64,000 nucleotides of DNA from Chromohalobacter marismortui. Lineage in GTDB: Bacteria; Pseudomonadota; Gammaproteobacteria; Pseudomonadales; Halomonadaceae. A program made the translations under genes and the position numbers. Location of the stretch: contig NZ_SOBR01000001.1 of NCBI RefSeq assembly GCF_004364315.1, forward strand, positions 1 through 64,000, in the 5' to 3' direction. Of the stretch, positions 11,547 to 37,651 are shown one piece after another (positions within the stretch are counted from its first letter, which is position 1; each line of letters starts with the position of its first letter). Under the pieces are notes generated by a model that ran no database searches, had not been told where the DNA came from, and was given only the letters and a program-made list of their open reading frames with translations.

Positions 11547-12401
11547 ATGACGTCAAGACCCCCTACCCTATGTGGCCATATCGTGGCCATTGGCGGTGCC
11601 GAGGACAAGACCTCGGAACTGGCCATTCTCAAGCGGGTCTTCGAGCTCGCGCCCGAGGATAGCCATGAAGTCGCCATCATCGCCACGGCGAGCAGCATTC
11701 CAGAACAGCTTTTGCCCAGCTACGAAGCCGCCTTCAGGCGCCTGGGCGCCAGCCAGGTGCATTCACTGGACATCCAGGATCGCTACCAGGCCAGCGAGGC
11801 CGAGATCGTGAGCTTGATCCAGCGCAGTGGGGTGATTTTTTTCACCGGCGGTGACCAGTTGCGCCTGACCACGGTGCTGGGAGGCTCCGCCACGCTGCGC
11901 GCGGTGCGCGAGCGCTTGCGAGCCGGCGCCGTGGTCGCGGGGACCAGTGCCGGGGCGGCGGCGATGCCCAGTACCATGATCTACAACGGTGCGGCGTCGG
12001 ATGCCTTGCGCAAGGGCGCGGTGAACATGACCTTCGGGCTCGGCTTCGTGCGCGGGATGGTCATCGACAGCCATTTTCTCGAACGGGGACGATTCACGCG
12101 CCTGATGGAAGTCGGTGCCAGCAATCCCGAGCAACTCGGCATCGGCCTCGGCGAGGACGCTGCCGTCATCATCTATCCCAATCGTATCCTCGAAACCATT
12201 GGGCCGGGGCACGTCATCATCATCGATAGCCGCGATCTGGCGAGTTCCAATATCGCGGAACTGGAAATGGGCGCGCCGGTCGCCGTCGAGAACATGATCC
12301 TGCATGCCATGGTCAGCGGCCATGGCTACGACCTCGATGCGCGACGTTACCTGGTCGCCGATGAACTGGAAGCGGTATTGACAAGGAGGCGCCAAGGATG
12401 A
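11547..12401 (+). CDS. cphB: Cyanophycinase
   Basis: A 284-residue serine peptidase of family S51. GTSAGA near residue 134 carries the nucleophilic Ser, with FFTGGDQLRL upstream and IDSHFLERGR downstream, all characteristic of CphB. It cleaves cyanophycin (multi-L-arginyl-poly-L-aspartate) to beta-Asp-Arg dipeptides. No signal peptide is visible, so action is intracellular. The gene overlaps cphA by four bases (ATGA), showing tight coupling of the degrading and synthesising enzymes. Confidence 0.95.
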   Translation: MTSRPPTLCGHIVAIGGAEDKTSELAILKRVFELAPEDSHEVAIIATASSIPEQLLPSYEAAFRRLGASQVHSLDIQDRYQASEAEIVSLIQRSGVIFFTGGDQLRLTTVLGGSATLRAVRERLRAGAVVAGTSAGAAAMPSTMIYNGAASDALRKGAVNMTFGLGFVRGMVIDSHFLERGRFTRLMEVGASNPEQLGIGLGEDAAVIIYPNRILETIGPGHVIIIDSRDLASSNIAELEMGAPVAVENMILHAMVSGHGYDLDARRYLVADELEAVLTRRRQG

Positions 12402-15037
12402 AGATTCTCGAGCATCGCGCGTTGCGAGGACCGAACTATTACAGCCGCTATCCGGCTATTTTCATGCGTTTGGATATCGAGGCGCTCGAGGAGAGGCCGA
12501 GCGATACCGTACCCGGCATTGTCGAGCATCTCACCGAACTCATGCCGACATTGCAGGAACATCGTTGTTCGGTGGGGCGTCCCGGGGGCTTTCTGGAACG
12601 GCTGGCACGGGGTACCTGGGCCGGCCATGTCGTCGAGCATGTGGCGATCGAGCTGCAGAACCTGATCGGCTTCTCGGTCGGATATGGCAAGACGGTCGAT
12701 TCCTACGAAACCGGGATCTACAACGTCGTCTATCGCTATCGCGACGAGGCTTGCGGGCTGGCGGCGGGCGTCGAGGCGGTGGAGATCGTCACCCGGCTGT
12801 TCGCGGGCGATGCGGTGGATATCGCCCCGATCGTCGCCCGCCTCAAGGATGTGCGTGACGCCCACATGCTGGGGCCATCGACGGCCTCGATCGTGGCGGC
12901 CGCGCAGCGTCGAGGGATTCCCTATGCGCGCCTCGATGAAGATACCAGCTACGTACAACTCGGGCATGGTCATCGTCAGCAACGCTTTCAGGCCACGGTG
13001 ACCTGTCGCACCAATCTGATCGGCCATGGCATCGCGCATGACAAGGATTGGACCAAGCGAGTGCTCGGTGAGGCGGGCATCCCGGTGCCGCGCGGATACG
13101 TTTGTCATTCACGCGATGAGGCGCTCGCCACGGCGCACGAGATCGGCTATCCAGTCGTCGTCAAACCCTTGATCGGCAACCACGGTCGCGGTGTCAGTAC
13201 GGACATCGAGGATGACCAGGCCCTGGAAAACGCCTTCGCCGTCGCGTCAGGTCACCATGATGGCGTCATCATCGAGCAGTATGTGCGGGGCGAAGATCAC
13301 CGTCTGCTGGTGATCGACGGCAAGCTCGTAGCGGCGGCTCGGCGGCGTCCGGCCCATGTGATCGGCGACGGCAAGAGCACGCTGCAGACATTGATCGACA
13401 ACGAGAACCGCGATCCGCGGCGTGGCATCGGCCATGAAAATCTGCTCACGCAGATCGATGTCGACGCCCAGACGCTTCGGCTGCTGGCGCAGCAGAACCT
13501 GACCCTGGACAGCGTCATCTCACGCGAGGAGATCGTCTACCTCAAGCCCACTGCAAATCTGAGTACCGGCGGCACGGCGACGGATGTCACCGAGGACGTG
13601 CATCCCGATGTGCTCTACACCGCGGAGCGCATCGCCCGCCTGGTGGACCTCGATATCATCGGCATCGACCTGCTTGCCGAGACGTTGACGCGTCCGTTGG
13701 AAGAGCAATCGGCGGCCGTGGTCGAGGTCAATGCCGGACCGGGCTTTCGCATGCATCTTTCCCCGACCCATGGCGCCGGCCGCGATGTTGGCCAGCACGT
13801 GGTCGATATGCTGTTTCCGGAGAGCGAGGATAACGGCCGTATTCCCATCGTGGCGGTCACCGGCACCAACGGCAAGACGACCACGGTACGTCTGATCTCG
13901 CATTTATTGCGCCAGGCGGGGCGCAGCGTTGGTACGGCGTGCACCGGGGCCATCGAGGTCGATAATCACGTCATCATGCGCGGCGACTACAGCGGCCCGC
14001 AGGCCGCCACGACGGTGCTGCGCGAGCCCACCGTCGAGTATGCCGTGCTCGAGGTCGCGCGTGGCGGCATCATGCGTCGGGGGCTGGGGTTCGATGAATG
14101 CCAGGTCGGCGTGTTGTTGAATATCGCCAGCGATCACCTGGGCGAGAGCGACATCCATACCCTGGACGAACTGGCGCGTTGCAAGAGCGTGGTGATCGAT
14201 GCGGTCGGCGAGTCCGGCACGGCGGTGCTCAATGCCGACGACCCGCGCGTGCTGGCGAGTGGCGAATGGGCGCGTGGCGACATCATCTACTTTGCGCTGG
14301 ACCCTGATTCGCCGGTCATACGCGAGCATGTAAGCGACCATGGCGTCGCGTTCACGGTGCATCACGGTCATATCGTGATGCTGCAGGGCCAGGTGGTGGC
14401 CGAGGTGCTTCCCGTGGCCAACGCGCCCATCACCTTCGATGGGTTCGCGCGCTTCAATATCGCCAACGCCTTGGCGGCAAGTGCTGCCGCGCATGCGCTG
14501 GGGCTGAGTATCGCCGATATCCAACTGGGTTTGCAGACCTTCCATCCGACGCCGGGGCAGAACCCCGGTCGTACCAACCTGATCGATGCCGGGGGCGTGA
14601 AGGTACTGATCGATTATGGCCACAACGTGCCGGCACTCGAGGCCTTGAGCGAGCTGGTCAGCCGTATCCCGGCGCAACGGCGTATCGGCGTGGCCAGTGC
14701 CCCGGGCAATCGGCGTGACGAGGATCTGGTCGCGCTGGGGGCGATGCTTGCGCATATGCATGACGTCGTTTTCTTGTGCGAGACTGCACCGCGGGGGCGC
14801 CCTGAGGGTGAAACCATCGAGTTGCTGCGTGAGGGGGCGGCGTCGGTGCCGAATGCGTGTCGGATCGAGACCGTCATGCAAGAGGCCGATGCAGTTGACC
14901 GGGCGCTCGACGAGGCTGCCGAAGGCGATCTACTGGTGTTGCTGGTGGATGATGTCGATGCCGTCACCGAGCGTTTGCGTGGGCAGCGTTTCGAGCCGCC
15001 GGCGTCCTCAAACGGCGGCGCAGGAGCCCATCCATGA
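12398..15037 (+). CDS. cphA: Cyanophycin synthetase
   Basis: An 879-residue enzyme of normal CphA length with three parts: an N-terminal region (1-160) with the HVVEHVAIELQ motif, an ATP-grasp domain (about 210-470; VVKPLIGNHGRGVS and VEVNAGPGFRMH), and a Mur-ligase-like domain (from about 485) with the P-loop TGTNGKTTT. It adds Asp to the backbone and Arg to each side chain at the expense of ATP, building an insoluble nitrogen reserve. It overlaps cphB and iadA by four bases each. The complete motif set suggests an active enzyme. Confidence 0.96.
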   Translation: MKILEHRALRGPNYYSRYPAIFMRLDIEALEERPSDTVPGIVEHLTELMPTLQEHRCSVGRPGGFLERLARGTWAGHVVEHVAIELQNLIGFSVGYGKTVDSYETGIYNVVYRYRDEACGLAAGVEAVEIVTRLFAGDAVDIAPIVARLKDVRDAHMLGPSTASIVAAAQRRGIPYARLDEDTSYVQLGHGHRQQRFQATVTCRTNLIGHGIAHDKDWTKRVLGEAGIPVPRGYVCHSRDEALATAHEIGYPVVVKPLIGNHGRGVSTDIEDDQALENAFAVASGHHDGVIIEQYVRGEDHRLLVIDGKLVAAARRRPAHVIGDGKSTLQTLIDNENRDPRRGIGHENLLTQIDVDAQTLRLLAQQNLTLDSVISREEIVYLKPTANLSTGGTATDVTEDVHPDVLYTAERIARLVDLDIIGIDLLAETLTRPLEEQSAAVVEVNAGPGFRMHLSPTHGAGRDVGQHVVDMLFPESEDNGRIPIVAVTGTNGKTTTVRLISHLLRQAGRSVGTACTGAIEVDNHVIMRGDYSGPQAATTVLREPTVEYAVLEVARGGIMRRGLGFDECQVGVLLNIASDHLGESDIHTLDELARCKSVVIDAVGESGTAVLNADDPRVLASGEWARGDIIYFALDPDSPVIREHVSDHGVAFTVHHGHIVMLQGQVVAEVLPVANAPITFDGFARFNIANALAASAAAHALGLSIADIQLGLQTFHPTPGQNPGRTNLIDAGGVKVLIDYGHNVPALEALSELVSRIPAQRRIGVASAPGNRRDEDLVALGAMLAHMHDVVFLCETAPRGRPEGETIELLREGAASVPNACRIETVMQEADAVDRALDEAAEGDLLVLLVDDVDAVTERLRGQRFEPPASSNGGAGAHP

Positions 15038-16203
15038 GTGCTGACAAGGCACGCCCTGCCGATACGATGACGCTATTGCGTGTCGGCGAGGCGTTTACGC
15101 CCGAACGCCGCGAGGCGACGGATATCCTCATGGCCGGTGGAAAAATCGTGGCACTGGGACAGGATCTCGACGTTCCCCGTGGCTGGCCCGTCCGCGAAGT
15201 GGAGGCGCGCGATCTGATCGCCGTGCCTGCCTTCATCGATCAGCACGTGCATGTCACCGGTGGCGGCGGCGAGGGCGGTTGCGGCACACGCTGCCCGCCG
15301 ATCGGTGTCCATGACATCGTCTCGATGGGCATCGGCACGCTGGTGGGCGTGCTGGGGACCGACAGCATCAGCCGCTCGCCGGCCGATTTGCTGGCCGCGG
15401 TGCGGGGGCTGGCGGCCGAGGGGCTAGCCGCCTACATGTACACGGGGGCATATCGCGTGCCGGCGCCGACCCTCACCGGCGATATCCAGCGCGATCTGGC
15501 CTGGATCCCCGAGGTCATCGGGGTAGGCGAAATCGCCATCTCGGATCACCGCTCCAGCCAGCCGCGCCAGGACGAGCTCGAACGGCTGGTGAGCGAGGCG
15601 CGGGTCGGTGCCATGCTGGCCGGCAAGCGGGGCATCTGTCATTTCCATCTCGGCGACGGCAAACGCGGCCTGGCGCCTCTGCGGCGTTTGCTGGAAGAGA
15701 CCGAGATTCCGCCCGACCAGATCATCCCGACCCATGTGAACCGTCGCCCTGAATTGCTCGAGGAGGCGGCGGAGTATGCGCTGGCGTTCGATGCCAGTGT
15801 GGATGTCACTGCATTCGAAGATGCCGGCGACGGGCTTTCCGCCTTCGACGCAGTGTCGCGACTCCTGGCGCGTGGCGTTCCGTCGGCGCGCATCACCCTG
15901 AGTTCCGACTGCAATGGCAGTCTGCCGGAATTCGATGCCGATGGCGCCTACGTGGGGATGCAGGTGGCGCGCAATACGGCGCTGATCGGGGATTGGCAAC
16001 GCCTCGTGCAGGACGAGGTATTGCCACTCGAATCGGCGCTGGAACTGCTGACCACTAACGTTGCCCGCGTGCTGGGCCTGCATGCTCACAAGGGACGCCT
16101 GGCGCTGGGGTTCGATGCCGATATCACCTTGCTCGATCGCGCCCTGCGTCCCCAGCGCACCTTCGTCGCGGGGCGCTGTCTGTATGGTGACATAGGCGAA
16201 TAG
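15034..16203 (+). CDS. iadA: Isoaspartyl dipeptidase
   Basis: A 389-residue amidohydrolase-superfamily enzyme. Metal ligands are visible in DQHVHVTGG (about residue 70), HFHLGDG (about 203), THVNRRP (about 231) and SSDCNGS (about 290). It hydrolyses beta-aspartyl dipeptides; here the natural substrate is probably the beta-Asp-Arg released by CphB, yielding free Asp and Arg. It overlaps cphA by four bases and ends the operon, convergent with nirD. Confidence 0.93.
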   Translation: MSADKARPADTMTLLRVGEAFTPERREATDILMAGGKIVALGQDLDVPRGWPVREVEARDLIAVPAFIDQHVHVTGGGGEGGCGTRCPPIGVHDIVSMGIGTLVGVLGTDSISRSPADLLAAVRGLAAEGLAAYMYTGAYRVPAPTLTGDIQRDLAWIPEVIGVGEIAISDHRSSQPRQDELERLVSEARVGAMLAGKRGICHFHLGDGKRGLAPLRRLLEETEIPPDQIIPTHVNRRPELLEEAAEYALAFDASVDVTAFEDAGDGLSAFDAVSRLLARGVPSARITLSSDCNGSLPEFDADGAYVGMQVARNTALIGDWQRLVQDEVLPLESALELLTTNVARVLGLHAHKGRLALGFDADITLLDRALRPQRTFVAGRCLYGDIGE

Positions 16204-16216
16204 ATGATGGCAGACG

Positions 16217-16579
16217 TCATGTGCTGATCATGACGTCGTTGCCTTCGATCTTGACCTCCCAGGTACGCAGATGAACGCTTTCGTCCTCGACGCAGACGCC
16301 GTCGCGCAAGCGGAAGTGCTGCTTGTAGAGTGGCGAGGCGATGACCGGCTCGCCCTTGATATCGCCGACGATGCCGCGGGCGAGGACGTTGGCGTTGGAG
16401 AACGGATCGTGGTTGGCCACGGCGTAGATCTCGGGCGTCCGGCCGGGCAGGTACAGAAGCGCGACTTGCGTGTCGGTGCCGTCCAGCCAGGCGGCCACAC
16501 CGGAATGCGCCACCAGATCGGCCTTTGCGCACAGCGTCTGCCAGGTCACTTCGCTCTTGAGGGCTGTTGCAGTGTTCAT
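16217..16579 (-). CDS. nirD: Assimilatory nitrite reductase small subunit
   Basis: A 120-residue Rieske-fold protein of the NirD type. The Cys and His ligands for a [2Fe-2S] cluster are absent, as is normal for NirD. Motifs are YAVANHDPFS and SPLYKQHFRLRDG. I chose the ATG at 16579, preceded by GAGGA at good spacing, over the in-frame ATG at 16603. It partners NirB in reducing nitrite to ammonium in the cytoplasm and is the last gene of the reductase-nirB-nirD operon. Confidence 0.92.
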   Translation of the reverse strand: MNTATALKSEVTWQTLCAKADLVAHSGVAAWLDGTDTQVALLYLPGRTPEIYAVANHDPFSNANVLARGIVGDIKGEPVIASPLYKQHFRLRDGVCVEDESVHLRTWEVKIEGNDVMIST

Positions 16580-16607
16580 GGTGTTTTCCTCATTAGTGTC
16601 CAATAGC

Positions 16608-19175
16608 TTAGGCCGGCCGGAGCTGGCCGCGCTCCTCGGTCACGATGATGTCCGGATCGGGGCGGCTGTCATTGACGAAGGTGCGAAAGCGCGTGAGCTT
16701 CTCCGGACTGGAGAGGGTGTTGGCCCATTCGCACTCATAGGTGTCGATGACGTGTTGCATCTGGGCCTCCAGCGCGTCGCCGAGGCCGAGACTGTCGTCG
16801 AGTACCACGTCCTTGAGATAGGCGAGTCCCCCGTCGAGGTTCTCGCGCCACACCGAGGTGCGCTGCAGGCGGTCGGCGGTGCGGATGTAGAACATCAGGA
16901 AGCGGTCGATGGTGCGGATCAACTGCGCGTCGTCGAGATCGGTGGCGAACAGCTCGGCATGACGCGGACGCATGCCGCCGTTGCCGCACACGTAGAGGTT
17001 CCAGCCGTGTTCGGTGGCGATCACGCCGACATCCTTGCTTTGCGCCTCGGCGCACTCGCGGGTACAGCCGGAGACGGCGAACTTGAGCTTGTGCGGCGAG
17101 CGCAGCCCCTTGTAGCGTTCCTCGAGGCGGATCGCCATGCCCACGCTGTCCTGCACGCCATAGCGGCACCAGGTGCTACCCACGCAGGATTTCACCGTGC
17201 GCGTGGCCTTGCCGTAGGCGTGGCCGGTCTCGAAGCCGGCCTCGATCAGTTCGCCCCAGATGTCGGGGAGCTGATGCAACTGGGCGCCGAACAGGTCGAC
17301 GCGCTGTCCGCCGGTGATCTTGGTGTAGAGCCCGTACTTCTTGCCGACTTCGCCCAGCACGATCAGCTTCTCGGGTGTGATCTCGCCGCCGGGGATGCGG
17401 GGCACCACGGAGTAGGTACCGTTCTTCTGCATGTTGGCCATGAAGGTGTCGTTGGTGTCCTGCAGCGGCACGTGGGCGGCATCGGTGATTGGCTCGTTGA
17501 AGCAGGCCGCCAGGATCGAGGCCACCGCGGGCTTGCAGATATCGCAGCCGAGCTTCGGGGCTGATGAAGAGCCAAGCTTCGGGGCTGATGAAGAGCCGAG
17601 GCCGTGACCGGTGGTCGTGCCGTGCTTTTCGATCAGTTCGCTGAAGGTCTTGATGCCCTCCACGCGGACAATGGAATAGAGCTCTTGGCGGGTGTGAGCG
17701 AAGTGCTCGCACAGCGATTGATCGACCTCGACACCGCGCGCTTCCAGTTCATGATCGACAACACTCTTGAGCAGCGCCGCGCAGCCGCCGCAGCCGGTGC
17801 TGGCCTTGGTCTCGCCTTTGACGCTGGCCAGATCCAGGGCGCCGTCGTCGAGCGTGGCGCAGATATCGCCCTTGGTGACGTTGTGGCATGAGCAGATCGT
17901 CGCCGTTTCGGGCAGCGCGTCCGGCCCCAGGGTGGGGGCGCCATCACTGGAGGGCAGGATCAGCGAGGCCGGGTCCTCGGGGAGCTCGAGGCCGTTGGCG
18001 TAGTACTGCATCAGGGTGTCGTAGGTCGCGTTGTCGCCGACCAGCATGGCGCCGAGTAGTTTCTTGGCGTCGCTGGACACCACCAGCTTGCGGTATTCCT
18101 GCTTGATCTCGTCCAGGTAGCGGAAGGTGCGCGCGCCCGGCGTGCGATCACCATGGGCGTCGCCGATGGCACCGACATCCACGCCCAGCAGCTTGAGCTT
18201 GGTGCTCATGTCGGCGCCGGTGAAGGTCGCATCGCCCTCGGTCAGCGTGGCGGCGGCGACTTTCGCCATCTGATAGCCCGGCGCGACCAGCCCGAAGATG
18301 CTTTGATTCCACAATGCGACCTCGCCGACGGCGAGGATCGCGGGGTCGCTGGTCAGGCAGCGGTCATCGATGACCACGCCACCACGTTCGCCGATTTCCA
18401 GGGCGCAGTCTCGCGCCAGTTGATCGCGAGGCCGGATGCCGGCGGAGAACACGATGAGATCGGTTTCCAGCATCTTGTCGTCCTGGAAGACCATGCGGTG
18501 AAAGCTCGTCTCGCCGGCCTCGATACGCTGCGTGGCGCGATCGGTGAGCACCTGCACGCCCAGGGCTTCGATCTTCTCGCGCAGCAACTTGCCGCCTTCG
18601 GCGTCCACCTGCATGGGCATCAGACGGGGCGCGAACTCGACCACGGCGGTATCCAGGTTCAGGCCGCGCAGGGCATTGGCGGCCTCCAGGCCCAGCAGGC
18701 CACCGCCGACGACCACGCCGGTGGTGGCGTCTTCGGCGGCCTCGCGAATGGCATCGAGGTCATCCAGGGTGCGATAGACCAGGCATTTCTCGCGGTCGTT
18801 GCCGGGAATCGGCGGCACGAACGGGTAGGAGCCGGTCGCCAGAACCAGGCGATCATAGGGATGACGGCCAGATTCGGTGACGACCTCGTTGGTGTCGCGA
18901 TCGATGGCGGTCACGCTGTCGTGAATGCGCAGTTCGATGCCGTGCTCGGCGTAGTAGTCGGTACTCGAGAGCGCCAGTGACTGGGCATCACGGCCGCTGA
19001 AGTATTCAGAGAGGTGTACGCGGTCGTAGGCCGGATGGCGCTCCTCGCCGAACACGATGATGGCGTATTGGCGATGGGCGCCGAGCTCGACGAGCTGCTC
19101 GATCAGGTGATGGCCGACCATGCCGTTGCCGATCACGATCAAGCGCGGTGCGTTGGGGGGTGTGGGCATGCTCAT
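16608..19175 (-). CDS. nirB: NADH-dependent assimilatory nitrite reductase large subunit
   Basis: An 855-residue protein with an N-terminal FAD/NAD reductase (to about residue 400; GNGMVGHHLIEQ, GGGLLGLEAA), a BFD-like [2Fe-2S] domain (CSCHNVTKGD and GCGGC), and a C-terminal sulfite/nitrite-reductase region whose siroheme-[4Fe-4S] cysteines appear as CVGSTWC and CTREC. It reduces nitrite to ammonium with six electrons. Residues about 526-541 consist of an eight-residue unit, SSSAPKLG, present twice, just before GCDICKPAV, where other NirB proteins as I recall them run straight through. The start overlaps the upstream reductase stop by four bases. Confidence 0.95.
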   Translation of the reverse strand: MSMPTPPNAPRLIVIGNGMVGHHLIEQLVELGAHRQYAIIVFGEERHPAYDRVHLSEYFSGRDAQSLALSSTDYYAEHGIELRIHDSVTAIDRDTNEVVTESGRHPYDRLVLATGSYPFVPPIPGNDREKCLVYRTLDDLDAIREAAEDATTGVVVGGGLLGLEAANALRGLNLDTAVVEFAPRLMPMQVDAEGGKLLREKIEALGVQVLTDRATQRIEAGETSFHRMVFQDDKMLETDLIVFSAGIRPRDQLARDCALEIGERGGVVIDDRCLTSDPAILAVGEVALWNQSIFGLVAPGYQMAKVAAATLTEGDATFTGADMSTKLKLLGVDVGAIGDAHGDRTPGARTFRYLDEIKQEYRKLVVSSDAKKLLGAMLVGDNATYDTLMQYYANGLELPEDPASLILPSSDGAPTLGPDALPETATICSCHNVTKGDICATLDDGALDLASVKGETKASTGCGGCAALLKSVVDHELEARGVEVDQSLCEHFAHTRQELYSIVRVEGIKTFSELIEKHGTTTGHGLGSSSAPKLGSSSAPKLGCDICKPAVASILAACFNEPITDAAHVPLQDTNDTFMANMQKNGTYSVVPRIPGGEITPEKLIVLGEVGKKYGLYTKITGGQRVDLFGAQLHQLPDIWGELIEAGFETGHAYGKATRTVKSCVGSTWCRYGVQDSVGMAIRLEERYKGLRSPHKLKFAVSGCTRECAEAQSKDVGVIATEHGWNLYVCGNGGMRPRHAELFATDLDDAQLIRTIDRFLMFYIRTADRLQRTSVWRENLDGGLAYLKDVVLDDSLGLGDALEAQMQHVIDTYECEWANTLSSPEKLTRFRTFVNDSRPDPDIIVTEERGQLRPA
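17551..17598. repeat. In-frame 24-bp tandem duplication inside nirB
   Basis: Two 24-bp copies, identical except at the last base, lie head to tail in the linker between the BFD-like domain and the CDICKP motif. Each encodes SSSAPKLG in a shifted register, so the frame is preserved. Confidence 0.9.
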
Positions 19176-20437
19176 GCGGCTTCCTCCGATAGAGTGTCGG
19201 GCGTATCGAGTAACGGTTGCGCGTCGTGCTCGCCGAATAGCAGCGCTTGGCGGCCGGCGCTCAGGTCATGGCCGGCCAGGGCGCATTGGAAGTACCACGG
19301 GCCGGCGGCGGTATCGCCGTAGAGGACAGCGCCTTCCAGGCGGCCATCGCGAAGCAGTAGGCGGCGGTAGTCGCCGTGCTGCGGGTCGTGATAAGTGAGC
19401 ACGTCGTGCTCGGGCGCGGGCGTGATGGGGCCGAAGGCGTACAGCGAGATCCCGCTGACCTTGAGCTTGGTGGCGCAGGGGCGTTCGCGGTAGGGCTCGG
19501 GTGTGTCGCCGCACAACCGTGCGGCGAGTACTTCGACCTGGCGCCAGATGGGCTCGATCAAGCCGTAGGTGGTGCCCTCGAACTCACAGCATTCGCCGAG
19601 CGCTGAAATGTGCGGATCGGAAGTGGTCATGAAGGCATCGACCTGAATGCCGCGCGCGGTCGTCAGGCCGGCGCGTTCGGCGAGTGAGGTGTTGGGCACG
19701 ATGCCGATCGCCGCGACGACGCAGTCGGCCGCGAGCGTGGTCCCGTCGCTCAGGACGACACCGGTGGCGCGCTGGCCGTCGGCATTCGGGGCATAGGCCG
19801 CGAGGTCGGCGCCGGTGTGGATCTCAAGGCCGCGGGCGCGCAGCTCGGCGGCGAGCATGCCGGCGGCAGTGGCGTCGAGCTGGCGGTTCATCAGGTGCGT
19901 CGCGCGGTGCACGACGCTGACCGTCATGCCGCGCTTGCGCATGCCTTCGGCGGCTTCCAGGCCGAGCAAGCCGCCGCCGATGACCACGGCGCGGCCGCCT
20001 GCGTCGGCCAGGCTGGCCAGCCGCTCGCCGTCCTCGAGATCACGAAAGGCGTGGATGCCGTCGAGGTCGCTGCCCGTCACCGAGGGGCGTGCGGCACGCG
20101 ATCCGGTGGCGAGCACCAGCCGGTCGTAGGCGAGTCGGCGTCCCTGGTCGGTGGTCAACGTCCGGCATCGCCGATCGATGGCGGTGGCGCGCTCGCCGGC
20201 GATCAGGGTCACGCCTTGCGCCGTGTACCAATCGCGCTCGCGCAGCGTCAGTGCCGAGCGGTCCATCTCGCCGGCCAGCCAGGGCGAGAGCAGGATGCGG
20301 TTATAGGCCGTCTCCGGTTCGTCGCCGAGGATGGTGATGTGACGCGGACGATGGGGATGCGCCAGCACGCGCTCAAGCAAGCGATGCCCGGCCATGCCGT
20401 TGCCGACGATCACCAGATGTTCGTCGTTTGCGCTCAT
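19172..20437 (-). CDS. FAD-dependent NAD(P)H oxidoreductase, probable electron donor for nitrate reductase
   Basis: A 421-residue flavoprotein resembling the N-terminal half of NirB and the NasB/NasC-type reductases that serve assimilatory nitrate reductase. FAD-binding VIVGNGMAGHRLLE lies near the N-terminus, the NAD-binding GGGLLGLEAAEGMRKRG near residue 145, and a C-terminal domain includes CATKLKVSGISLYAFG. No iron-sulfur motif is present. The ATG at 20437 has GGAGG upstream and is preferred to the codon at 20476. It is the first gene after the nir-side leader and overlaps nirB by four bases. The electron-transfer role is inferred from position. Confidence 0.82.
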   Translation of the reverse strand: MSANDEHLVIVGNGMAGHRLLERVLAHPHRPRHITILGDEPETAYNRILLSPWLAGEMDRSALTLRERDWYTAQGVTLIAGERATAIDRRCRTLTTDQGRRLAYDRLVLATGSRAARPSVTGSDLDGIHAFRDLEDGERLASLADAGGRAVVIGGGLLGLEAAEGMRKRGMTVSVVHRATHLMNRQLDATAAGMLAAELRARGLEIHTGADLAAYAPNADGQRATGVVLSDGTTLAADCVVAAIGIVPNTSLAERAGLTTARGIQVDAFMTTSDPHISALGECCEFEGTTYGLIEPIWRQVEVLAARLCGDTPEPYRERPCATKLKVSGISLYAFGPITPAPEHDVLTYHDPQHGDYRRLLLRDGRLEGAVLYGDTAAGPWYFQCALAGHDLSAGRQALLFGEHDAQPLLDTPDTLSEEAA

Positions 20438-20474
20438 GCCCCTGTGCCTCCCTGAAAATGTACTGCAGAAACGC

Positions 20475-20614
20475 AAAAGCGCCTGACACCCGATGGGGAA
20501 ATCGGATGCCAGGCGCCTTTGCCTGAAGGTAATCGTGTTGTCATGAACCGTGTGTCGGCTCCGGCCGGCGCGAGACGTATGTGCGTCTCAAGCCCAAGGG
20601 GTCGACGTTGACCC
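20475..20614 (-). promoter_or_regulatory. ANTAR-type attenuator leader of the reductase-nirB-nirD operon
   Basis: Read on the minus strand. P1 is at 20614-20599: stem GGGTC/GACCC, hexaloop AACGTC. An extra hairpin lies at 20589-20572 (GAGACG/CGTCTC). P2 is at 20525-20510: stem CAGGC/GCCTG, hexaloop AAAGGC. Both P1 and P2 loops have A at position 1 and G at position 4, the known recognition pattern for ANTAR proteins such as NasR and NasT. The terminator hairpin spans 20520-20475: about 20 consecutive pairs including wobbles, a six-base loop, then TTTT. Its 5' arm uses the loop and 3' arm of P2, so P2 and terminator exclude each other. Confidence 0.8.
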
Positions 20615-20630
20615 GCCTTGCCCTGAGTTA

Positions 20631-20646
20631 TGCCAGAGGCATGCCA
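20631..20646 (-). promoter_or_regulatory. Sigma-54 promoter for the nirB side
   Basis: The minus strand reads TGGCATGCCTCTGGCA, matching TGGCACG-N4-TTGCW with GG and GC at correct spacing. A transcript starting about 12 bases downstream would begin just before P1 of the leader. Confidence 0.65.
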
Positions 20647-20754
20647 ATCGTCCGCTAAGGCTTTCTTTTCAGTCGTTTGGGCGGTTTTGGTAGCCCGCGT
20701 CGGTGGCAGCGGATGGCGAGACGTGTGCGCTGGTTGTGCGAATGGCGCGCGGAT

Positions 20755-20771
20755 TGCACCAGGCTGGTGCC
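20755..20771. promoter_or_regulatory. NtrC-like binding site
   Basis: TGCACCAGGCTGGTGCC differs from the 17-bp enterobacterial NtrC consensus palindrome at essentially one conserved position. It lies between the two outward-facing sigma-54 promoters, roughly 110-140 bp from each expected start, a normal enhancer distance. Confidence 0.7.
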
Positions 20772-20847
20772 TCGGGGTGTGAGTAGGCACGGGACCGCCA
20801 GCCAGGTGCCAGTCCAAGTGGTTGTTTAAACGGCATTAGGCCCAAGA

Positions 20848-20863
20848 TGGCGCTGGATTTGCA
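20848..20863 (+). promoter_or_regulatory. Sigma-54 promoter for nasA
   Basis: TGGCGCTGGATTTGCA has the GG and TTGCA elements at correct spacing. Transcription would start near 20875, about 30 bases before P1 of the nasA leader. Confidence 0.7.
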
Positions 20864-20905
20864 AACAATGTATACGTCATCTTTTCGGCCACGGCGCGCC
20901 GAAAA

Positions 20906-21007
20906 CGCCAACGGCGGCGAGACGCAATTCATCATTGGCGGGCGGCCTGCACGGTCGCCCTACCAGGCAAAGAGGCCTGATCCTGCTGCGGCGGGGTCGG
21001 GCCTCTT
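20906..21007 (+). promoter_or_regulatory. ANTAR-type attenuator leader of nasA
   Basis: P1 is at 20906-20919: short stem CGCC/GGCG, hexaloop AACGGC. An additional eight-pair hairpin lies at 20940-20960. P2 is at 20964-20979: stem CAGGC/GCCTG, hexaloop AAAGAG. Both P1 and P2 loops have A1 and G4. The terminator hairpin runs from 20970 to 21007 with 17 consecutive pairs including wobbles and a TGCG tetraloop, followed by an interrupted T tract. The terminator's 5' arm overlaps P2. The design and P2 stem are the same as in the divergent nir-side leader. Confidence 0.8.
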
Positions 21008-21034
21008 GCGTTTGCAGGCGGAGGGCGAGACAGC

Positions 21035-23722
21035 ATGCAGCATCACACGACCTGCCCCTATTGCGGCGTTGGTTGCGGCGTCAAGGCAACCATCGAAGAC
21101 GGCGTCATGACCGGCGTCGAAGGCGATCGGGACCACCCCGCCAACTATGGACGGCTGTGCGTGAAGGGCTCGGCGTTGCATGAAACGCTGGGTGATCACG
21201 GACGCTTGCTCGCACCACGCGTGGACGGGCGCGAGGTGAGCTGGGGCGATGCGCTCGACCAGGTGGCGACACGCCTGGCGGCGGTGCGCGATGAACATGG
21301 CGGTCAGGCGATTGCCGGCTATCTCTCCGGCCAGTTGCTCACCGAGGACTATTACGCCGCCAACAAGCTGTTCAAGGGCTTTCTGGGTTCGCCGCACCTG
21401 GATACCAACTCGCGGCTCTGCATGGCGTCCGCAGTGGCGGGCTACAAGCGCGCCTTCGGTGCCGATGCCGTGCCGTGCAATTACGAGGATTTGGAAGAGG
21501 CCGAGCTGGTGGTGCTGGTGGGCAGCAACCTGGCCTGGAATCATCCGGTGCTCTTCCAGCGTCTGCGCACCGCCAAGCAGCGCAACCCGTTGATGCGTGT
21601 GGTGGTGATCGATCCCCGGGTGACCGACACCTGCGAGATCGCAGATCTCTATCTGCCGCTCAAGCCGGGCAGCGACGCGCGGATCTTCAATGGACTGCTG
21701 GCCTTCATGGCCGACAAGGACAAGCTGGATGCGGTCTATCTGGAACGCCATACCCAAGGGCTAGACGATGCCTTGGCGGCGGCCCGTGACGAAGCGACGA
21801 CGCTGGCGGGTATCGCCGACGATTGCGAATTGGACATCGAGGCCTTGGAAACCTTCTATTACTGGTTCGCTTCACAATTGCACGTGGTGACGCTGTATTC
21901 CCAGGGCGTCAATCAGTCCACCAGTGGCACCGACAAGTGCAACGCCATCATCAATTGCCATCTGGCGGGCGGCAAGCTGGGCCTGCCGGGTGCCGGGCCG
22001 TTTTCGATCACCGGCCAACCCAATGCCATGGGTGGGCGCGAGGTGGGAGGCCTAGCGAATCAACTGGCGGCACACATGGACTACCACACGCCGGGGGCTC
22101 AGGCGCTGGTAACGGAATTTTGGCATGCTCCTCACTTGCCGGAGGGCCCGGGCCTCAAGGCCGTCGAGCTATTCGAGGCCATCGAGCGTGGCGAGATCCA
22201 GGCGCTGTGGATCATGGCCACCAATCCCGTGGTCAGCCTGCCGGATGCCGATCAAGCCAAGCGCGCCCTGGCGAAATGCCCACTGGTGATCGTCTCCGAA
22301 TGCATGGCGGATACCGACACCCTGGCCTATGCCGACATCGTGCTGCCGGCCAGTTCCTGGGCGGAGAAGGATGGCACCGTGACCAACTCCGAGCGGCGAA
22401 TTTCGCGCCAGCGCGGCATGTTGCCGCCGCCCGGTGAGGCGCGCCACGACTGGTGGATCATCACCCAAGTCGCCAAGCATCTGGGGTATGAAGAAGCGTT
22501 CGAGTATCGCCATCCTCGCGATATCTTCGTCGAGCACGCGCGACTTTCCGGACACGCCAACCGGGCCGATGGAGTGCCGCGTGTGTTCGATATTTCCGCC
22601 CTGAGTGACCTGGACCGTCACGCCTATGACGCGCTGGTGCCGCTGCAGTGGCCGGTGACCGCCGAGGCGCCGCAGGGCACCGCCCGGTTGTTCGAGACGG
22701 GGCGCTTCGCCACCCCGGACGGTCTGGCGCGACTGGTGCCGGTGCGCCCGGCGCTGCCCGAACAGGCGGTGGAGGCTCGCTACCCGCTACGCCTCAACAG
22801 CGGACGCGTGCGCGATCAGTGGCACACCATGACGCGGACCGGTCGTGCCCCGCGCCTACTCAACCATCGCGCCGAACCCTATGTCGATATCCACCCGCAG
22901 GATGCCCGGGCGCACGCCCTCGTCGACGGGGGACTGGCGCGGGTCTTCAACCGTTGGGGCGAAGCCCGGGTACGGGTGCGTGTCGCCACGTCGCAGCGGC
23001 GTGGCGATGTCTTCATTCCCATCCACTGGAACGCCCAGTTCACTGGGGCCGGGCGTGTCGGCACGCTGTTCGCGCCGCTGACCGATCCGCTCTCGGGGCA
23101 GCCGGAGACCAAGCACGGCGCGGTGGCTTGCGAGCCGCTCGACGTGGCCGAGGAGGCGACGCTCCTGCTGGCGCCGATGTGCGCTCGAGCCCCCCTTCAG
23201 AGCGACGATGCCTACTGGGCGCGAATGCCGCTGAATCACGCCCAGCGCTGGCAGATCGCCAGCACCACGTCACGCGACTGGCTGGCCTGGTGCGCCGCGC
23301 GGTTCAGCGTCGAGGCGACGCTGTGGTGCGAGGACGCGACCAGCGGCCGTCTGCGGGCCGCGGGGCTTCGCAATGGGCGTCTGGTGTGGTGGCTGATGGT
23401 CGGGCCGCCCAGTGAACTGCCGGGGCTGGCCTGGCTCGATGCGCGGTTCGGCGACGCCGCGCTGACCGACGAACAGCGTCGCCGCGTCCTGGCGGGCAGC
23501 GCCTCGGGGCAGGCCGATACGGGCCCGGTGGTGTGCAGTTGTCACCAGGTCGGCGCCAAGACGATTCGCGAGGCCATCCGGCGTGGCGATACGAATGTCG
23601 ATGCGCTCGGCGCGCGTCTGGCCTGCGGGACGCAGTGCGGCTCCTGCACTCCCGAACTCAAGTCATTGCTCGACGAGGAGGTGACCCATGCTCGCGCTGC
23701 TGACACGCTGGAAACGGCCTGA
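21035..23722 (+). CDS. nasA: Assimilatory nitrate reductase catalytic subunit
   Basis: An 895-residue molybdopterin oxidoreductase. The N-terminal [4Fe-4S] motif has Cys at about 7, 10, 14 and 42 (CPYCGVGC and RLCVKG). TGQPNAMGGREVGGLANQL and ATNPVVSLPD are typical of NasA. A C-terminal BFD-like [2Fe-2S] domain (CSCHQVGAKT and CGTQCGSC, from about residue 830) receives electrons, as in Klebsiella-type NasA. It reduces nitrate to nitrite in the cytoplasm and has no signal peptide. Its end overlaps the SUMT gene by 35 bases. Confidence 0.95.
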   Translation: MQHHTTCPYCGVGCGVKATIEDGVMTGVEGDRDHPANYGRLCVKGSALHETLGDHGRLLAPRVDGREVSWGDALDQVATRLAAVRDEHGGQAIAGYLSGQLLTEDYYAANKLFKGFLGSPHLDTNSRLCMASAVAGYKRAFGADAVPCNYEDLEEAELVVLVGSNLAWNHPVLFQRLRTAKQRNPLMRVVVIDPRVTDTCEIADLYLPLKPGSDARIFNGLLAFMADKDKLDAVYLERHTQGLDDALAAARDEATTLAGIADDCELDIEALETFYYWFASQLHVVTLYSQGVNQSTSGTDKCNAIINCHLAGGKLGLPGAGPFSITGQPNAMGGREVGGLANQLAAHMDYHTPGAQALVTEFWHAPHLPEGPGLKAVELFEAIERGEIQALWIMATNPVVSLPDADQAKRALAKCPLVIVSECMADTDTLAYADIVLPASSWAEKDGTVTNSERRISRQRGMLPPPGEARHDWWIITQVAKHLGYEEAFEYRHPRDIFVEHARLSGHANRADGVPRVFDISALSDLDRHAYDALVPLQWPVTAEAPQGTARLFETGRFATPDGLARLVPVRPALPEQAVEARYPLRLNSGRVRDQWHTMTRTGRAPRLLNHRAEPYVDIHPQDARAHALVDGGLARVFNRWGEARVRVRVATSQRRGDVFIPIHWNAQFTGAGRVGTLFAPLTDPLSGQPETKHGAVACEPLDVAEEATLLLAPMCARAPLQSDDAYWARMPLNHAQRWQIASTTSRDWLAWCAARFSVEATLWCEDATSGRLRAAGLRNGRLVWWLMVGPPSELPGLAWLDARFGDAALTDEQRRRVLAGSASGQADTGPVVCSCHQVGAKTIREAIRRGDTNVDALGARLACGTQCGSCTPELKSLLDEEVTHARAADTLETA

Positions 23723-34113: not shown

Positions 34114-35469
34114 TCAACGAGCGGCGATGGCGTCACTGGGCGTTGCGTTATCTGCTGCGGCATCACGGTAGGCGGCGTCTTCTTCGGCGAGAACCTGCGG
34201 CGAGAAGCGCACCAGCAAGGCACAAAACGAGGCAAGCAGCACGGCCAGGCCAAGATAAAACAGCCCTTGCTGATAACTCAGCGACTCGCTGCGGAACAGG
34301 AAGCCCGCCGCCACGGCCCCTGCGTTACCGCCCGCGCCGACGATGCCGGCCACGGCGCCGAGCGCTTTCTTGTTGATAAAGGGGACGACCCCGAAGGTGG
34401 CGCCCTCGGCCATCTGGGTGAACAGGCTGAAGACCAGCATGATGCCGATGGCGAGCGCCAGCGTCTGCATCTGGGCGAAGCCCATCAGGGCGACCCCTTC
34501 GCAGAGCATGGCGATGAACAGCCAGCGCACGCGCCCCTTGAGCCCCCCATGGCGGGCGAAAAGATCAGAGAAGATACCGCCGAGAGTGCGGGCGAACAAG
34601 TTCATTAATCCAAATAGCCCGGCGATGAGTCCGGCGGTGGCCAGATCGAGTTCGAAGGTGTCGAAGAAATAGATGGCCGCGATGTTGTTGATGGTCAATT
34701 CGACGCCGAAGCAGGCGGCATAGACGATGAACAGCGCCCATACACGCACGTCCCGCATGGCGGCGCCGAAGCTGTGTGCCATGCCATGTTCCTTCTCCGG
34801 GTAGGGAAGCTCGCCGCGCGCCCGAAGCGTATCGTAGTTGCCGTCGGGGGCGTCCTGGGTAAAGACGTAATAGGCAATGCCGGTCAAGAACAGCACGATG
34901 CCGGGAACGACCATGGCCAGACGCCAGCCGAGCGCTTCATTGACGCCCAGCATCACAATGCCGGAGAACACCAGGGGCATGAGGATTTGCGTGGTGCCGC
35001 CGCCCAGGTTGCCCCAGCCCGCCGTGGTGGCGTTGGCGGTGCCGACGACGTTGGGGCCGAACATCACCGAGGTATGGTACTGCGTGATGACGAACGAGGC
35101 GCCGATGGCTCCGATCGCCAGGCGTGCCAGCAGGAAGGTCTCGAAGCTGTCGGCGAAGCCGATCAGCATCACGGGCAGCGAGCCGAGGCATAGCAGCCAG
35201 GTGTAGGCCTTGCGTGGCCCGATCTTGTCGCAGAGTAGGCCGATGACCAAGCGGACCAGCACCGTGATGGCGACAGAGGCGATGATGGTGTTGCCGATCT
35301 GGGTCTTGGTCAGACCGAGATCGTCGCGTACCACTGCCATCAAAGGGGCGATACCGAACCAACCGAAGAAGCAGACGTGAAATGCGAACCACGACATGTG
35401 GAAGGCACGCATCTGCGGTGTCTTGAGGCTGAAAAGCCGTATCTTGTTGGCTTTGTTGCGGATTTCCAT
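34114..35469 (-). CDS. narK: Nitrate/nitrite MFS transporter
   Basis: A 451-residue, 12-helix transporter with the nitrate-porter signatures ATTAGWGNLGGG and GNAGAVAAGFLF, plus FFGWFGIAPLM in helix 1. It brings nitrate into the cell for NasA. It is transcribed away from nasT-nasS and preceded by a near-consensus sigma-54 promoter and an NtrC-like site. The start follows GAGGATGA. I found no ANTAR-type leader between promoter and gene. Confidence 0.93.
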   Translation of the reverse strand: MEIRNKANKIRLFSLKTPQMRAFHMSWFAFHVCFFGWFGIAPLMAVVRDDLGLTKTQIGNTIIASVAITVLVRLVIGLLCDKIGPRKAYTWLLCLGSLPVMLIGFADSFETFLLARLAIGAIGASFVITQYHTSVMFGPNVVGTANATTAGWGNLGGGTTQILMPLVFSGIVMLGVNEALGWRLAMVVPGIVLFLTGIAYYVFTQDAPDGNYDTLRARGELPYPEKEHGMAHSFGAAMRDVRVWALFIVYAACFGVELTINNIAAIYFFDTFELDLATAGLIAGLFGLMNLFARTLGGIFSDLFARHGGLKGRVRWLFIAMLCEGVALMGFAQMQTLALAIGIMLVFSLFTQMAEGATFGVVPFINKKALGAVAGIVGAGGNAGAVAAGFLFRSESLSYQQGLFYLGLAVLLASFCALLVRFSPQVLAEEDAAYRDAAADNATPSDAIAAR

Positions 35470-35605: not shown

Positions 35606-35621
35606 GGCAAGAGGCGTGCCA
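35606..35621 (-). promoter_or_regulatory. Sigma-54 promoter for narK
   Basis: The minus strand reads TGGCACGCCTCTTGCC, matching TGGCACG-N4-TTGCW at every position but the last. The predicted 5' leader is about 125 bases. Confidence 0.75.
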
Positions 35622-35729: not shown

Positions 35730-35746
35730 CGCACCGCTGATGTGCA
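35730..35746. promoter_or_regulatory. NtrC-like site between narK and nasT
   Basis: CGCACCGCTGATGTGCA keeps GCAC and GTGC arms at the right spacing. A weaker related sequence begins near 35706. Either could serve both divergent sigma-54 promoters. Confidence 0.5.
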
Positions 35747-35782
35747 AAGACGGTGTGGCATGGGCTGCCGCAGGGCATTACT

Positions 35783-35798
35783 TGGCATGCAACCTGCA
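35783..35798 (+). promoter_or_regulatory. Sigma-54 promoter for nasT-nasS
   Basis: TGGCATGCAACCTGCA has GG and GC elements correctly spaced, with one deviation in the -12 box. The predicted start leaves about 20 bases before nasT. Confidence 0.55.
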
Positions 35799-35827
35799 TT
35801 GCAGGGAGACAAGCACCCAGGAGAGAA

Positions 35828-36412
35828 ATGCGCATGACCGTGAAGGTGCTGATCGTGGATGCGCGGCCGGAGCGCTCCCGTGCACTGGAACAAGCGCTGC
35901 ACGAAGCGGGCTTCGACGTGGTGACGCGTGCCGACGAGCATGACGATCTCTACGCCATCATGACGCGCGTCACGCCGGATGCGGTGATCATCGATGCGGC
36001 GCTGCCCAGTCGCGATACCTTGGAGCACATGGGCCAACTGGGCCGCCGCTTTCCCAAGCCGATGATCATGCTGGCCGAGGAAGAAACGCCGAATTTGACG
36101 CGAGAAGCGACGAGCGTAGGCGTCAGTGCGTATGTGGTCGAGGACGTACAGCCGGCGCTGGTGCGTTCGATGGTCAACGTGGCGATTGCCAGCTTTGAAG
36201 CGCATCGCGCTCTCAAGGGAGAACTGACCAAGACTCAGACCACGCTCTCGCAGCGGCGCACCATTGAACGCGCCAAGAGCCAATTGATGGAAACGCACGC
36301 GTTCAGTGAAGACGCCGCTTATCAGTGGCTACGTAAGCACGCCATGAATCGTCGGCTGACCATTCACGAGGTCGCCCAGGCTGTCTTGGCCAGCGACGAT
36401 GTCGGCTCGTAG
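35828..36412 (+). CDS. nasT: ANTAR-domain response regulator (antiterminator)
   Basis: A 194-residue protein with an N-terminal receiver-like domain (VLIVDARPERS; AVIIDAAL carries the usual phospho-acceptor Asp position) and a C-terminal ANTAR RNA-binding domain (RRTIERAKSQLMETHAFSEDAAYQWLRKHAMNRRLTIHEVAQAVL). NasT binds paired hexaloop hairpins and prevents termination; two such leaders lie in the nirB-nasA control region. The ATG at 35828 follows AGGAG. It is followed after six bases by nasS. Confidence 0.93.
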   Translation: MRMTVKVLIVDARPERSRALEQALHEAGFDVVTRADEHDDLYAIMTRVTPDAVIIDAALPSRDTLEHMGQLGRRFPKPMIMLAEEETPNLTREATSVGVSAYVVEDVQPALVRSMVNVAIASFEAHRALKGELTKTQTTLSQRRTIERAKSQLMETHAFSEDAAYQWLRKHAMNRRLTIHEVAQAVLASDDVGS

Positions 36413-36418
36413 GAGAGA

Positions 36419-37651
36419 ATGATGAACGATCGCCGGATACCTCGAGGAGAATGGCCTTCTCCCGAGCGCGATACGCTGACCCTGGGCATGTTGCCGCTCA
36501 ACGATGCGGCGCCACTGGTGGTGGCGCGAGAACGTGGCTTGTTTGCAGCGCATGGTCTGGATGTGACGTTGCATGTCGAATCGTCGTGGGCCGGCCTGCG
36601 CGATGCTATGCAGCTCGGGCTTCTCGAGGGTGCACAGATGCTGCCCTTGATGCCGCTGGCCTCGACATTGGGGCTCGATGGACGCCCTACACCGATGCTT
36701 TCGGCGCTGACGCTGAATCTCGGGGGGAATGCCATCACCGTGTCCAATGCGCTGTATGCCAGCATGCAGGCGGCCGAGCCCGAGGCGATGATGCAGGCAC
36801 CGATTTCCGCCCGTGCATTGGCGGCAGTGGTGCGCCAACGGCGGACCGCCGGTCAGACGGCATTGCGTTTCGCTAGCGTCTATCCCTTTTCTTCACACCA
36901 CTATCAGCTGCGCTACTGGCTGGCGGAAGGGGGGGTCGATCCCGATCGCGATCTCGAATTGCGCGTGGTGCCCCCGCCCTTGGTGGCGGAGCAACTCGAG
37001 GCCGGGTGGCTGGATGGCTACTGTGTCGGCGAACCCTGGAACACGCTCGCGGCACGTCGCGAAAGCGGTCGTGTGCTGATCGGCAGTCATGCCATCTGGC
37101 AGCACGGCCAAGAAAAAGTCTTCGCGGTACGCGAGGCATGGGCCGATGCCCATCCGGCAGCGCACCGTGCGTTGCTACGAGCGCTACTCGAGGCATGCGC
37201 CTGGCTGGATAGGCCGGCGCAGCGTGTCGAGGCGGCACGCGTGATGTGCGAAAAGGGGTATCTGGATGTGCCCCCCAACGTGGTGGAGGAAAGCATGGCG
37301 GCGGGAGATACGCCGGCACCGCATGGCGTGAGTGTGTTCCATCGCCATGCCGCGAACTTCCCTTGGCGCTCGCACCTGGCGTGGTATGCCGATCAGATGC
37401 GGCGTTGGCAGCATCTGAATGTCGAGGAGTCGGTACTGAAGGCGTGCCTGGCCCGCTGCGTCCGGCCGGACCTGTTTCGCGAAGCGGCCGACGATCTTGG
37501 CTTCAATTATCCACTCGTCGATACCAAGCGCGAAGGTGAACATGCGACGGAATGGCCGCTGGCAGGGTGCCGCGGTGCCATCGCCATGGGGAGCGATCTG
37601 CTGTTGGGTGGCGGGCATTTTTCAGGGCGCGACGACGATAGCGAAAGCTGA
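36419..37651 (+). CDS. nasS: Nitrate-sensing regulator NasS
   Basis: A 410-residue protein of the NrtA-type solute-binding fold (LTLGMLPLNDAAPLVVARERGLFAAHGLDV; GYCVGEPWN) but with no signal peptide, so cytoplasmic. In known systems NasS sequesters NasT and releases it upon binding nitrate or nitrite. Two adjacent ATG codons (36419, 36422) are possible starts. The nasT-nasS spacing implies one operon. Confidence 0.93.
   Translation: MMNDRRIPRGEWPSPERDTLTLGMLPLNDAAPLVVARERGLFAAHGLDVTLHVESSWAGLRDAMQLGLLEGAQMLPLMPLASTLGLDGRPTPMLSALTLNLGGNAITVSNALYASMQAAEPEAMMQAPISARALAAVVRQRRTAGQTALRFASVYPFSSHHYQLRYWLAEGGVDPDRDLELRVVPPPLVAEQLEAGWLDGYCVGEPWNTLAARRESGRVLIGSHAIWQHGQEKVFAVREAWADAHPAAHRALLRALLEACAWLDRPAQRVEAARVMCEKGYLDVPPNVVEESMAAGDTPAPHGVSVFHRHAANFPWRSHLAWYADQMRRWQHLNVEESVLKACLARCVRPDLFREAADDLGFNYPLVDTKREGEHATEWPLAGCRGAIAMGSDLLLGGGHFSGRDDDSES

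Follow-up and report, generated by a model that had tools for sequence, protein, structure and literature searches.

The intergenic region between two back-to-back nitrate-assimilation operons very probably acts as an AND gate on both of them, built from one NtrC site, two sigma-54 promoters and two NasT-controlled ANTAR leaders with long linkers. This reading is carried by the anatomy of the region, its conservation, the covariation of its stems and the joint absence of leaders and ANTAR proteins, all of which are observed in the sequences described here. The region is a 597-bp gap (20438–21034) in the window, the whole 64 kb stretch of DNA that was analysed, from a genome whose nearest named relatives are Chromohalobacter species. 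It separates nasX-nirB-nirD on the minus strand from nasA on the plus strand (Table 1); a tetrapyrrole methylase gene is found downstream of nasA. The gene name nasX is a label coined in this analysis, and the ATG at 20437 is assumed to be its start.

By analogy with work in Klebsiella, Paracoccus and Enterococcus, from which we infer NtrC binding, the start sites, NasT binding and read-through, the gate would operate as follows. Under nitrogen limitation, phosphorylated NtrC at the one shared site would drive the two outward sigma-54 promoters, and each transcript would begin just upstream of its ANTAR leader. Without nitrate or nitrite, NasS would hold NasT and the terminator would stop transcription. 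With nitrate or nitrite, NasT would be freed, bind P1 and P2, keep P2 folded and block the terminator, and blocking of the terminator would permit read-through into nasX-nirBD and nasA.

NtrC, which scores above its curated cut-off, and RpoN are both encoded in the genome. NasT is the sole ANTAR protein detected there; its gene lies 14.7 kb from the gap and adjoins nasS, the product of which is presumed to be the nitrate/nitrite-binding partner of NasT. NasT can be aligned to EutV (6wsh/6ww6) across the receiver and ANTAR domains. Four of the five EutV loop-contact residues named in PMC8934654 are kept as read from this alignment (Arg168, Met172, Asn173 and Arg175), while Arg177 is not. The receiver, read in the same way, is without one pocket acid and without the lysine, which fits release by NasS.

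Anatomy of the divergent control region

The elements of this gap had been proposed in an earlier note made from the sequence, and each is present where it was placed or within a few bases. These include an NtrC-like palindrome, which matches all but one of the 12 consensus letters, and two outward-facing sigma-54 matches, both of which have the GG-N10-GC form. The palindrome sits between the two sigma-54-type sites, its centre being about 143 bp (minus) and about 111 bp (plus) from the starts estimated from the -12 elements. NtrC sites usually lie roughly 100–150 bp upstream of the transcription start. No sigma-70-type promoter was found in the gap. Consensus matches for NtrC (9 against 5.1 expected) and for sigma-54 (27 against 19.7 expected) are not clearly above chance in the window, which counts against the AND gate; it is through position and conservation, not rarity, that the matches carry weight. 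A second plus-strand sigma-54-like match at 20743–20758, overlapping the NtrC site, was dropped because it lacks conservation.

Table 1. Genes, promoter elements and leader hairpins of the locus, in window coordinates
Feature	Coordinates	Strand	Remarks
nirD	16217..16603	-	Rieske_2
nirB, assimilatory nitrite reductase large subunit	16608..19175	-	NIR_SIR, Fer2_BFD
nasX-like FAD/NAD(P) oxidoreductase	19172..20437	-	Pyr_redox_2; first gene of minus operon
Terminator hairpin, nasX leader	20478..20517	-	17-bp stem, then TTTGCGTTT; leader fold z = -5.5
P2 antiterminator hexaloop, nasX leader, CAGGC-AAAGGC-GCCTG	20510..20525	-	3' arm within terminator 5' arm
Two extra hairpins in P1-P2 linker, nasX leader	20545..20589 (20589-20572, 20561-20545)	-	MFE and centroid folds
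P1 hexaloop hairpin, nasX leader, GGGTC-AACGTC-GACCC	20599..20614	-	A1/G4, closing C:G
Sigma-54-type promoter TGGCATGCCTCTGGCA for nasX-nirB-nirD	20631..20646	-	Canonical GG-N10-GC; kept in genus alignment
NtrC-type palindrome TGCACCAGGCTGGTGCC, TGCACC-N5-GGTGCC	20755..20771	.	11/12 consensus letters; single shared enhancer candidate
Sigma-54-type promoter TGGCGCTGGATTTGCA for nasA	20848..20863	+	GG-N10-GC; perfect to TGGC-N7-TTGCA
Extra hairpin before P1, nasA leader	20882..20905	+	8-bp stem, 8-nt loop
P1 hexaloop hairpin, nasA leader, CGCC-AACGGC-GGCG	20906..20919	+	A1/G4, closing C:G
Extra hairpin in P1-P2 linker, nasA leader	20940..20960	+	Predicted fold
P2 antiterminator hexaloop, nasA leader, CAGGC-AAAGAG-GCCTG	20964..20979	+	A1/G4, closing C:G; overlaps terminator
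Terminator hairpin, nasA leader	20972..21005	+	15-bp stem; weak U run TTGCGTTT
nasA, assimilatory nitrate reductase catalytic subunit	21035..23722	+	Molybdopterin, Molybdop_Fe4S4
nasT	35753..36412	+	Receiver-like domain and ANTAR
nasS	36419..37651	+	NMT1-like

Both leaders conform to the definition of an ANTAR target, with two hairpins of at least 3 bp that have six-base loops with A1 and G4. A C:G pair closes all four hexaloops (P1 and P2 of both leaders), and the hairpin feature drawn from PMC7496416 is present in each of them. P2 overlaps a terminator with a stem of 15–17 bp in both leaders; its 3' arm lies inside the terminator 5' arm, so that P2 and the terminator are mutually exclusive. 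The proposed order of promoter, P1, extra hairpin, P2 and terminator holds on both sides, but the minus leader has two extra hairpins rather than one, and in the plus leader an additional hairpin precedes P1. The folds of the leaders have z scores against shuffles of -5.5 (minus) and -4.5 (plus). The weak U run of the plus terminator counts against the AND gate, as does a generic terminator scan of the region, which gives one site against 0.7 in shuffles.

A strict rule combining P1, P2 and an overlapping terminator identifies exactly two units on both strands of the 64 kb, both in this gap, and none of 1000 dinucleotide shuffles of the region contains a unit. This upholds the judgement of the earlier note that chance is an unlikely source of the arrangement.

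Conservation and covariation

The genus set consists of nine Chromohalobacter loci, the window and eight others; a tenth sampled genome is without this nasA. All nine retain the NtrC site, the two promoter sites and the four hairpins; the NtrC-like site matches 10 or 11 of 12 letters, and the plus sigma-54-like site reads TGGCG-N6-TTGC throughout. In the genus alignment, minus P1 has no variable column (0/16) against 19/73 in the linker (p = 0.019). The same is true of minus P2 (0/16), and the two together give 0/32 against 19/73 (p = 0.0006). Plus P1 is also invariant (0/14 against 8/44 linker columns), although this is not significant (p = 0.18) and counts against the AND gate. Plus P2 is present in all nine loci with 2/16 columns variable; P1 and P2 together give 2/30 against 8/44 (p = 0.19), a trend that is the same as on the minus strand and is not significant.

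Across the family, nasA matches at E <= 1e-70 were found in 152 of 201 genomes, and 90 loci were examined. The divergent gene is nasX in 55 of these and nasT-nasS in 32; the three loci with neither include one that has a nasA-side unit. Under the strict rule, the 55 nasX/nasA loci have both leaders (26), a leader on the nasX side only (14), on the nasA side only (3) or neither (12). The P1/P2 stems and A1/G4 loops are thus kept in relatives, as the earlier note had expected, in these 26 loci and in all eight relatives within the genus that have this nasA. The named species that carry the pair of leaders include seven Chromohalobacter, three Salinicola, Modicisalibacter xianhensis, Kushneria aurantia and Halomonas sp. 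EAR18. The 12 leaderless loci, which count against the AND gate, comprise three from genomes in which no ANTAR protein was detected, three with an ANTAR protein (L046, L091 and L117) and six outside the ANTAR-scanned set.

Two covariance models were built, R1 for the minus leader (trained on 13 loci) and R2 for the plus leader. R1 matches 20 of the 42 nasX/nasA loci outside its training set at E <= 1e-3, among them L091 and L118 on the nasA side only and L076 over P2 only. It has no match at this threshold in the 35 remaining nasA loci, where its best is 0.13. R2 matches 4 of those 35 non-nasX loci at E <= 1e-3 and is therefore not specific to the nasX/nasA arrangement, another point against the AND gate. 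The R1-fitted alignment, composed of 32 of the 55 loci (13 from training, the rest picked for having matches), contains two-sided changes in four of five P1 pairs and has a covariation score of 0.323, against 0.077 or less when slid. The compensatory changes anticipated in Halomonadaceae relatives are accordingly found, as two-sided stem changes in other genera. Fitted alignments lean towards structure, which is why an independent test of P1 matters: P1 lies upstream of P2 and terminator in 18 of 25 and 31 of 39 leaders from outside the genus, against 0.6 and 0.5 expected from shuffles.

Elsewhere in the genome, no further clear leader was found among the candidates scored (150 of 2710 for R1 and 150 of 3316 for R2). 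The plus leader was not among the R1 matches, and R2 picked up the minus leader only at E 0.43; a differently built leader could therefore be missed by this search. Two R2 matches elsewhere (E 1e-4 and 6e-4) were dropped because they lie inside long open frames and have no P1/P2/terminator unit, and three P2-like pattern matches without P1/P2/terminator were also dropped. No Rfam family reaches its gathering score in the region, which also counts against the AND gate.

Linker length and the proteins presumed to read the leaders

P1 and P2 are separated by 72 nt in the minus leader and by 44 nt in the plus leader, which breaks the spacing rule derived from EutV, a point absent from the earlier note. 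In eut leaders the linker measures 5–12 nt, and induction drops sharply at 14 nt (PMC3369931), while a 20-nt extension of the linker abolishes EutV antitermination (PMC8934654). A survey of actinobacterial ANTAR targets accepted 2–25 nt (PMC8164766). The leaders therefore lie outside the range described in the literature compared, and their excess over the spacing that EutV tolerates counts against the AND gate (PMC3369931, PMC8934654). The definition of an ANTAR target as given in PMC3369931 allows a variable linker, however, so that short spacing is a rule or a curation filter rather than part of the definition.

Long linkers are the usual state in nasX-type loci. All 27 nasA-side leaders have a shortest linker above 25 nt; the 42 nasX-side leaders have linkers above 25 nt in 31 cases, of 16–25 nt in nine, and of 12 and 15 nt in two. 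Overall, 58 of 69 nasX-type leaders exceed 25 nt, within a range of 12–109 nt. By comparison, all 11 leaders detected among the 32 nasTS-type loci have linkers of 4–9 nt. These loci had appeared leaderless, an artefact of the strict 4-bp rule; allowing 3-bp P2 stems reveals short-linker leaders in 11 of the 32. Other families of the class contributed 33 NasT regions, 16 of which contain 17 units in total, with linkers of 10 nt or less in 12 units and of 25–62 nt in five. Three NasT-linked loci from other families (L142, L153 and L154) have three apparent A1/G4 hexaloops; two of these precede P2, one distant from it (42–45 nt) and the other close to it (4 nt).

Given how far apart P1 and P2 are and how structured the linkers are, the distance has to be spanned either by linker folding or by another geometry of binding. 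Two exterior helices are predicted in each of the nine minus linkers of the genus. In 9 of 29 and 18 of 40 cases, no more than 5 out of 100 shuffled sequences reach the stability of the native linker; the genus rows in these sets are not independent. The median unpaired exterior length is no shorter than in shuffles (12 against 9.4 for plus, 12.5 against 10.8 for minus), and the idea that the linkers form compact bridges is thus unsupported, which counts against the AND gate. Linker stability generally exceeds that of shuffles, yet unpaired exterior bases are no fewer, so that a folded bridge is possible only.

The reader proteins vary within this one bacterial family, being one of two NasT types that are about 40% identical, a NasR-like NIT-ANTAR protein, or none detected. 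NasT matches at E <= 1e-20 are present in 82 of 201 genomes, 28 of them window-like (56–100% identity) and 54 distant (37–41%), the distant type being that found in nasTS-type loci. A scan of 30 genomes for ANTAR domains was positive in 27, and in 19 of those the best frame is of 413–504 aa. All eight such frames scanned have NIT and ANTAR domains and are NasR-like. Some genomes carry more than one ANTAR protein; a further ANTAR frame, of 424 aa, is present in G055, a genome of the nasTS type. Genomes with NasT and genomes with NasR-like readers both carry long-linker leaders, so either kind of reader occurs with them. This suggests that the sensor is exchangeable while the RNA design stays.

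Three nasX-type genomes (G043, G045 and G093, with loci L086, L102 and L098) had no ANTAR match in the scan, and neither strand of the gap in these loci carries a C:G-closed A1/G4 hexaloop whose stem reaches 4 bp. By a hand count that covers 45 of the 55 loci and pools related genomes, which are not independent events, at least one strict leader is present in 39 of 42 nasX-type loci with an ANTAR protein and in none of three without. Two loci outside the ANTAR-scanned set (L087 and L090) are also without such hexaloops. L086 has good sigma-54-like matches on both strands and a weak NtrC-like match (8/12); L098 and L102 have the NtrC-like TGCACCAGGCTGGCGCG and a good minus sigma-54-like match, with a weak plus match (8/12). 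These weak matches count against the AND gate. The retention of sigma-54-like sites in all three genomes without hexaloops is what a two-layer reading predicts. These three relatives are natural deletions by which the layer of nitrogen limitation would be told apart from that of nitrate.

Taking these distributions together, we incline cautiously towards regarding these leaders as an ANTAR antiterminator class of their own, marked by long linkers, whose P1 and P2 would cooperate across 12–109 nt against the EutV spacing rule. Such a class would go with mirrored nasX/nasA operons in genomes with NasT or NasR-like readers and be absent where no ANTAR protein is detected. The published ANTAR model includes the tight P1-P2 spacing of EutV, and the conserved linkers of 44–72 nt make this rule directly testable. 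The family also has short-linker leaders before nasA, which offer a direct contrast.

Alternative readings and known systems

The spacing also raises the prospect of single-hexaloop antitermination, with P2 alone as the working NasT site and the distant P1 as a separate recruiting hairpin or a relic. EutV is described as binding single hexaloops (PMC8934654), and the rule detects no P1 in 7 of 25 and 8 of 39 leaders from outside the genus that have P2 and terminator. P1 is nevertheless found far above chance in the remainder (18 and 31, against about 0.5), is invariant in the genus and covaries, which makes this reading unlikely. That the NtrC and sigma-54 sites are chance matches, with another regulator starting transcription, is a good deal less probable still: such matches are common in the window, but here they have canonical spacing, are conserved in nine of nine genus loci and stand in a region with no sigma-70-type promoter, and two relatives in which no ANTAR protein was detected keep the NtrC-like TGCACCAGGCTGGCGCG with a good minus sigma-54-like site. 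It is hardly credible that the hairpins are ordinary terminators between divergent genes and under no protein control. Their stems are strong and GC-rich, as this would have it, but each sits ahead of the gene that it would silence, A1/G4 hexaloops overlap the stem, and the hexaloops are missing from the three loci whose genomes gave no ANTAR match.

The AND gate has close counterparts. The earlier note took ANTAR leaders and NtrC control of nas genes to be established separately; the combination of Ntr control and ANTAR antitermination has itself been reported, for the nas genes of Klebsiella and, in a NasT-based form, for Paracoccus (PMC3369936, PMC5424462, PMC3795266). The nasFEDCBA operon of Klebsiella oxytoca is under general nitrogen control and nitrate induction through NasR (PMC5424462), and its leader has P1 and a P2 that overlaps the terminator (PMC3369936). 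It differs in being one operon with one leader and NasR, where the window has NasT/NasS and two mirrored leaders on a common NtrC site. In Paracoccus denitrificans, nitrate or nitrite releases NasT from NasS, and in the presence of nitrate NasT binds the leader RNA of nasA (PMC3795266), with hairpins HI and HII 137 and 91 bp upstream of nasA (PMC5424462). As described in these reports there is a single leader, and the NtrC site studied by mutation belongs to nasT rather than being common to two structural operons. The eut leaders of Enterococcus faecalis share dual A1/G4 hexaloops and a P2 exclusive with the terminator, and differ in linker length (PMC3369931). Nearer at hand, halomonad loci with divergent nasTS have an ANTAR leader before the same gene in the same family; they differ in their short linkers, in the 3-bp P2 stems of the leaders listed, and in having no divergent-side leader found.

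No description of a mirrored NasT leader pair or of long P1-P2 linkers was found in the open-access literature searched, subscription papers being outside it. Relative to that literature, the mirrored leaders on one NtrC site, the long structured linkers, the split of the family into short and long linkers, and the exchange or absence of the reader are new.

The Rfam consensus of narK RNA (RF03032) has two A1/G4 hexaloops, as GGCAGCC-AACGGC-GGCUGCC, about 7 nt, then CGAC-AAAGAC-GUCG, with only the first hairpin marked in its structure line. It may be an unrecognised ANTAR target; nothing describing it as one was found in the open-access literature searched. Weak matches to this family in the window (15.8 bits, gathering score 43.2) were dropped, since 13 of 14 control genomes also match at that threshold.

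An MFS gene beside nasT (34114–35469, minus) has a near-perfect sigma-54 match, TGGCACGCCTCTTGCC, at 35621–35606 (minus), and a weaker NtrC-like match is at 35730–35746. An ANTAR leader was looked for before this gene and none was found; the gene, which possibly encodes a nitrate transporter, may thus be under the Ntr layer alone. On the other side of the nitrate operons, ORFs at 11547–16203 resemble cyanophycinase, cyanophycin synthetase and isoaspartyl dipeptidase (names read from translations), a nitrogen-storage neighbour that flanks them.
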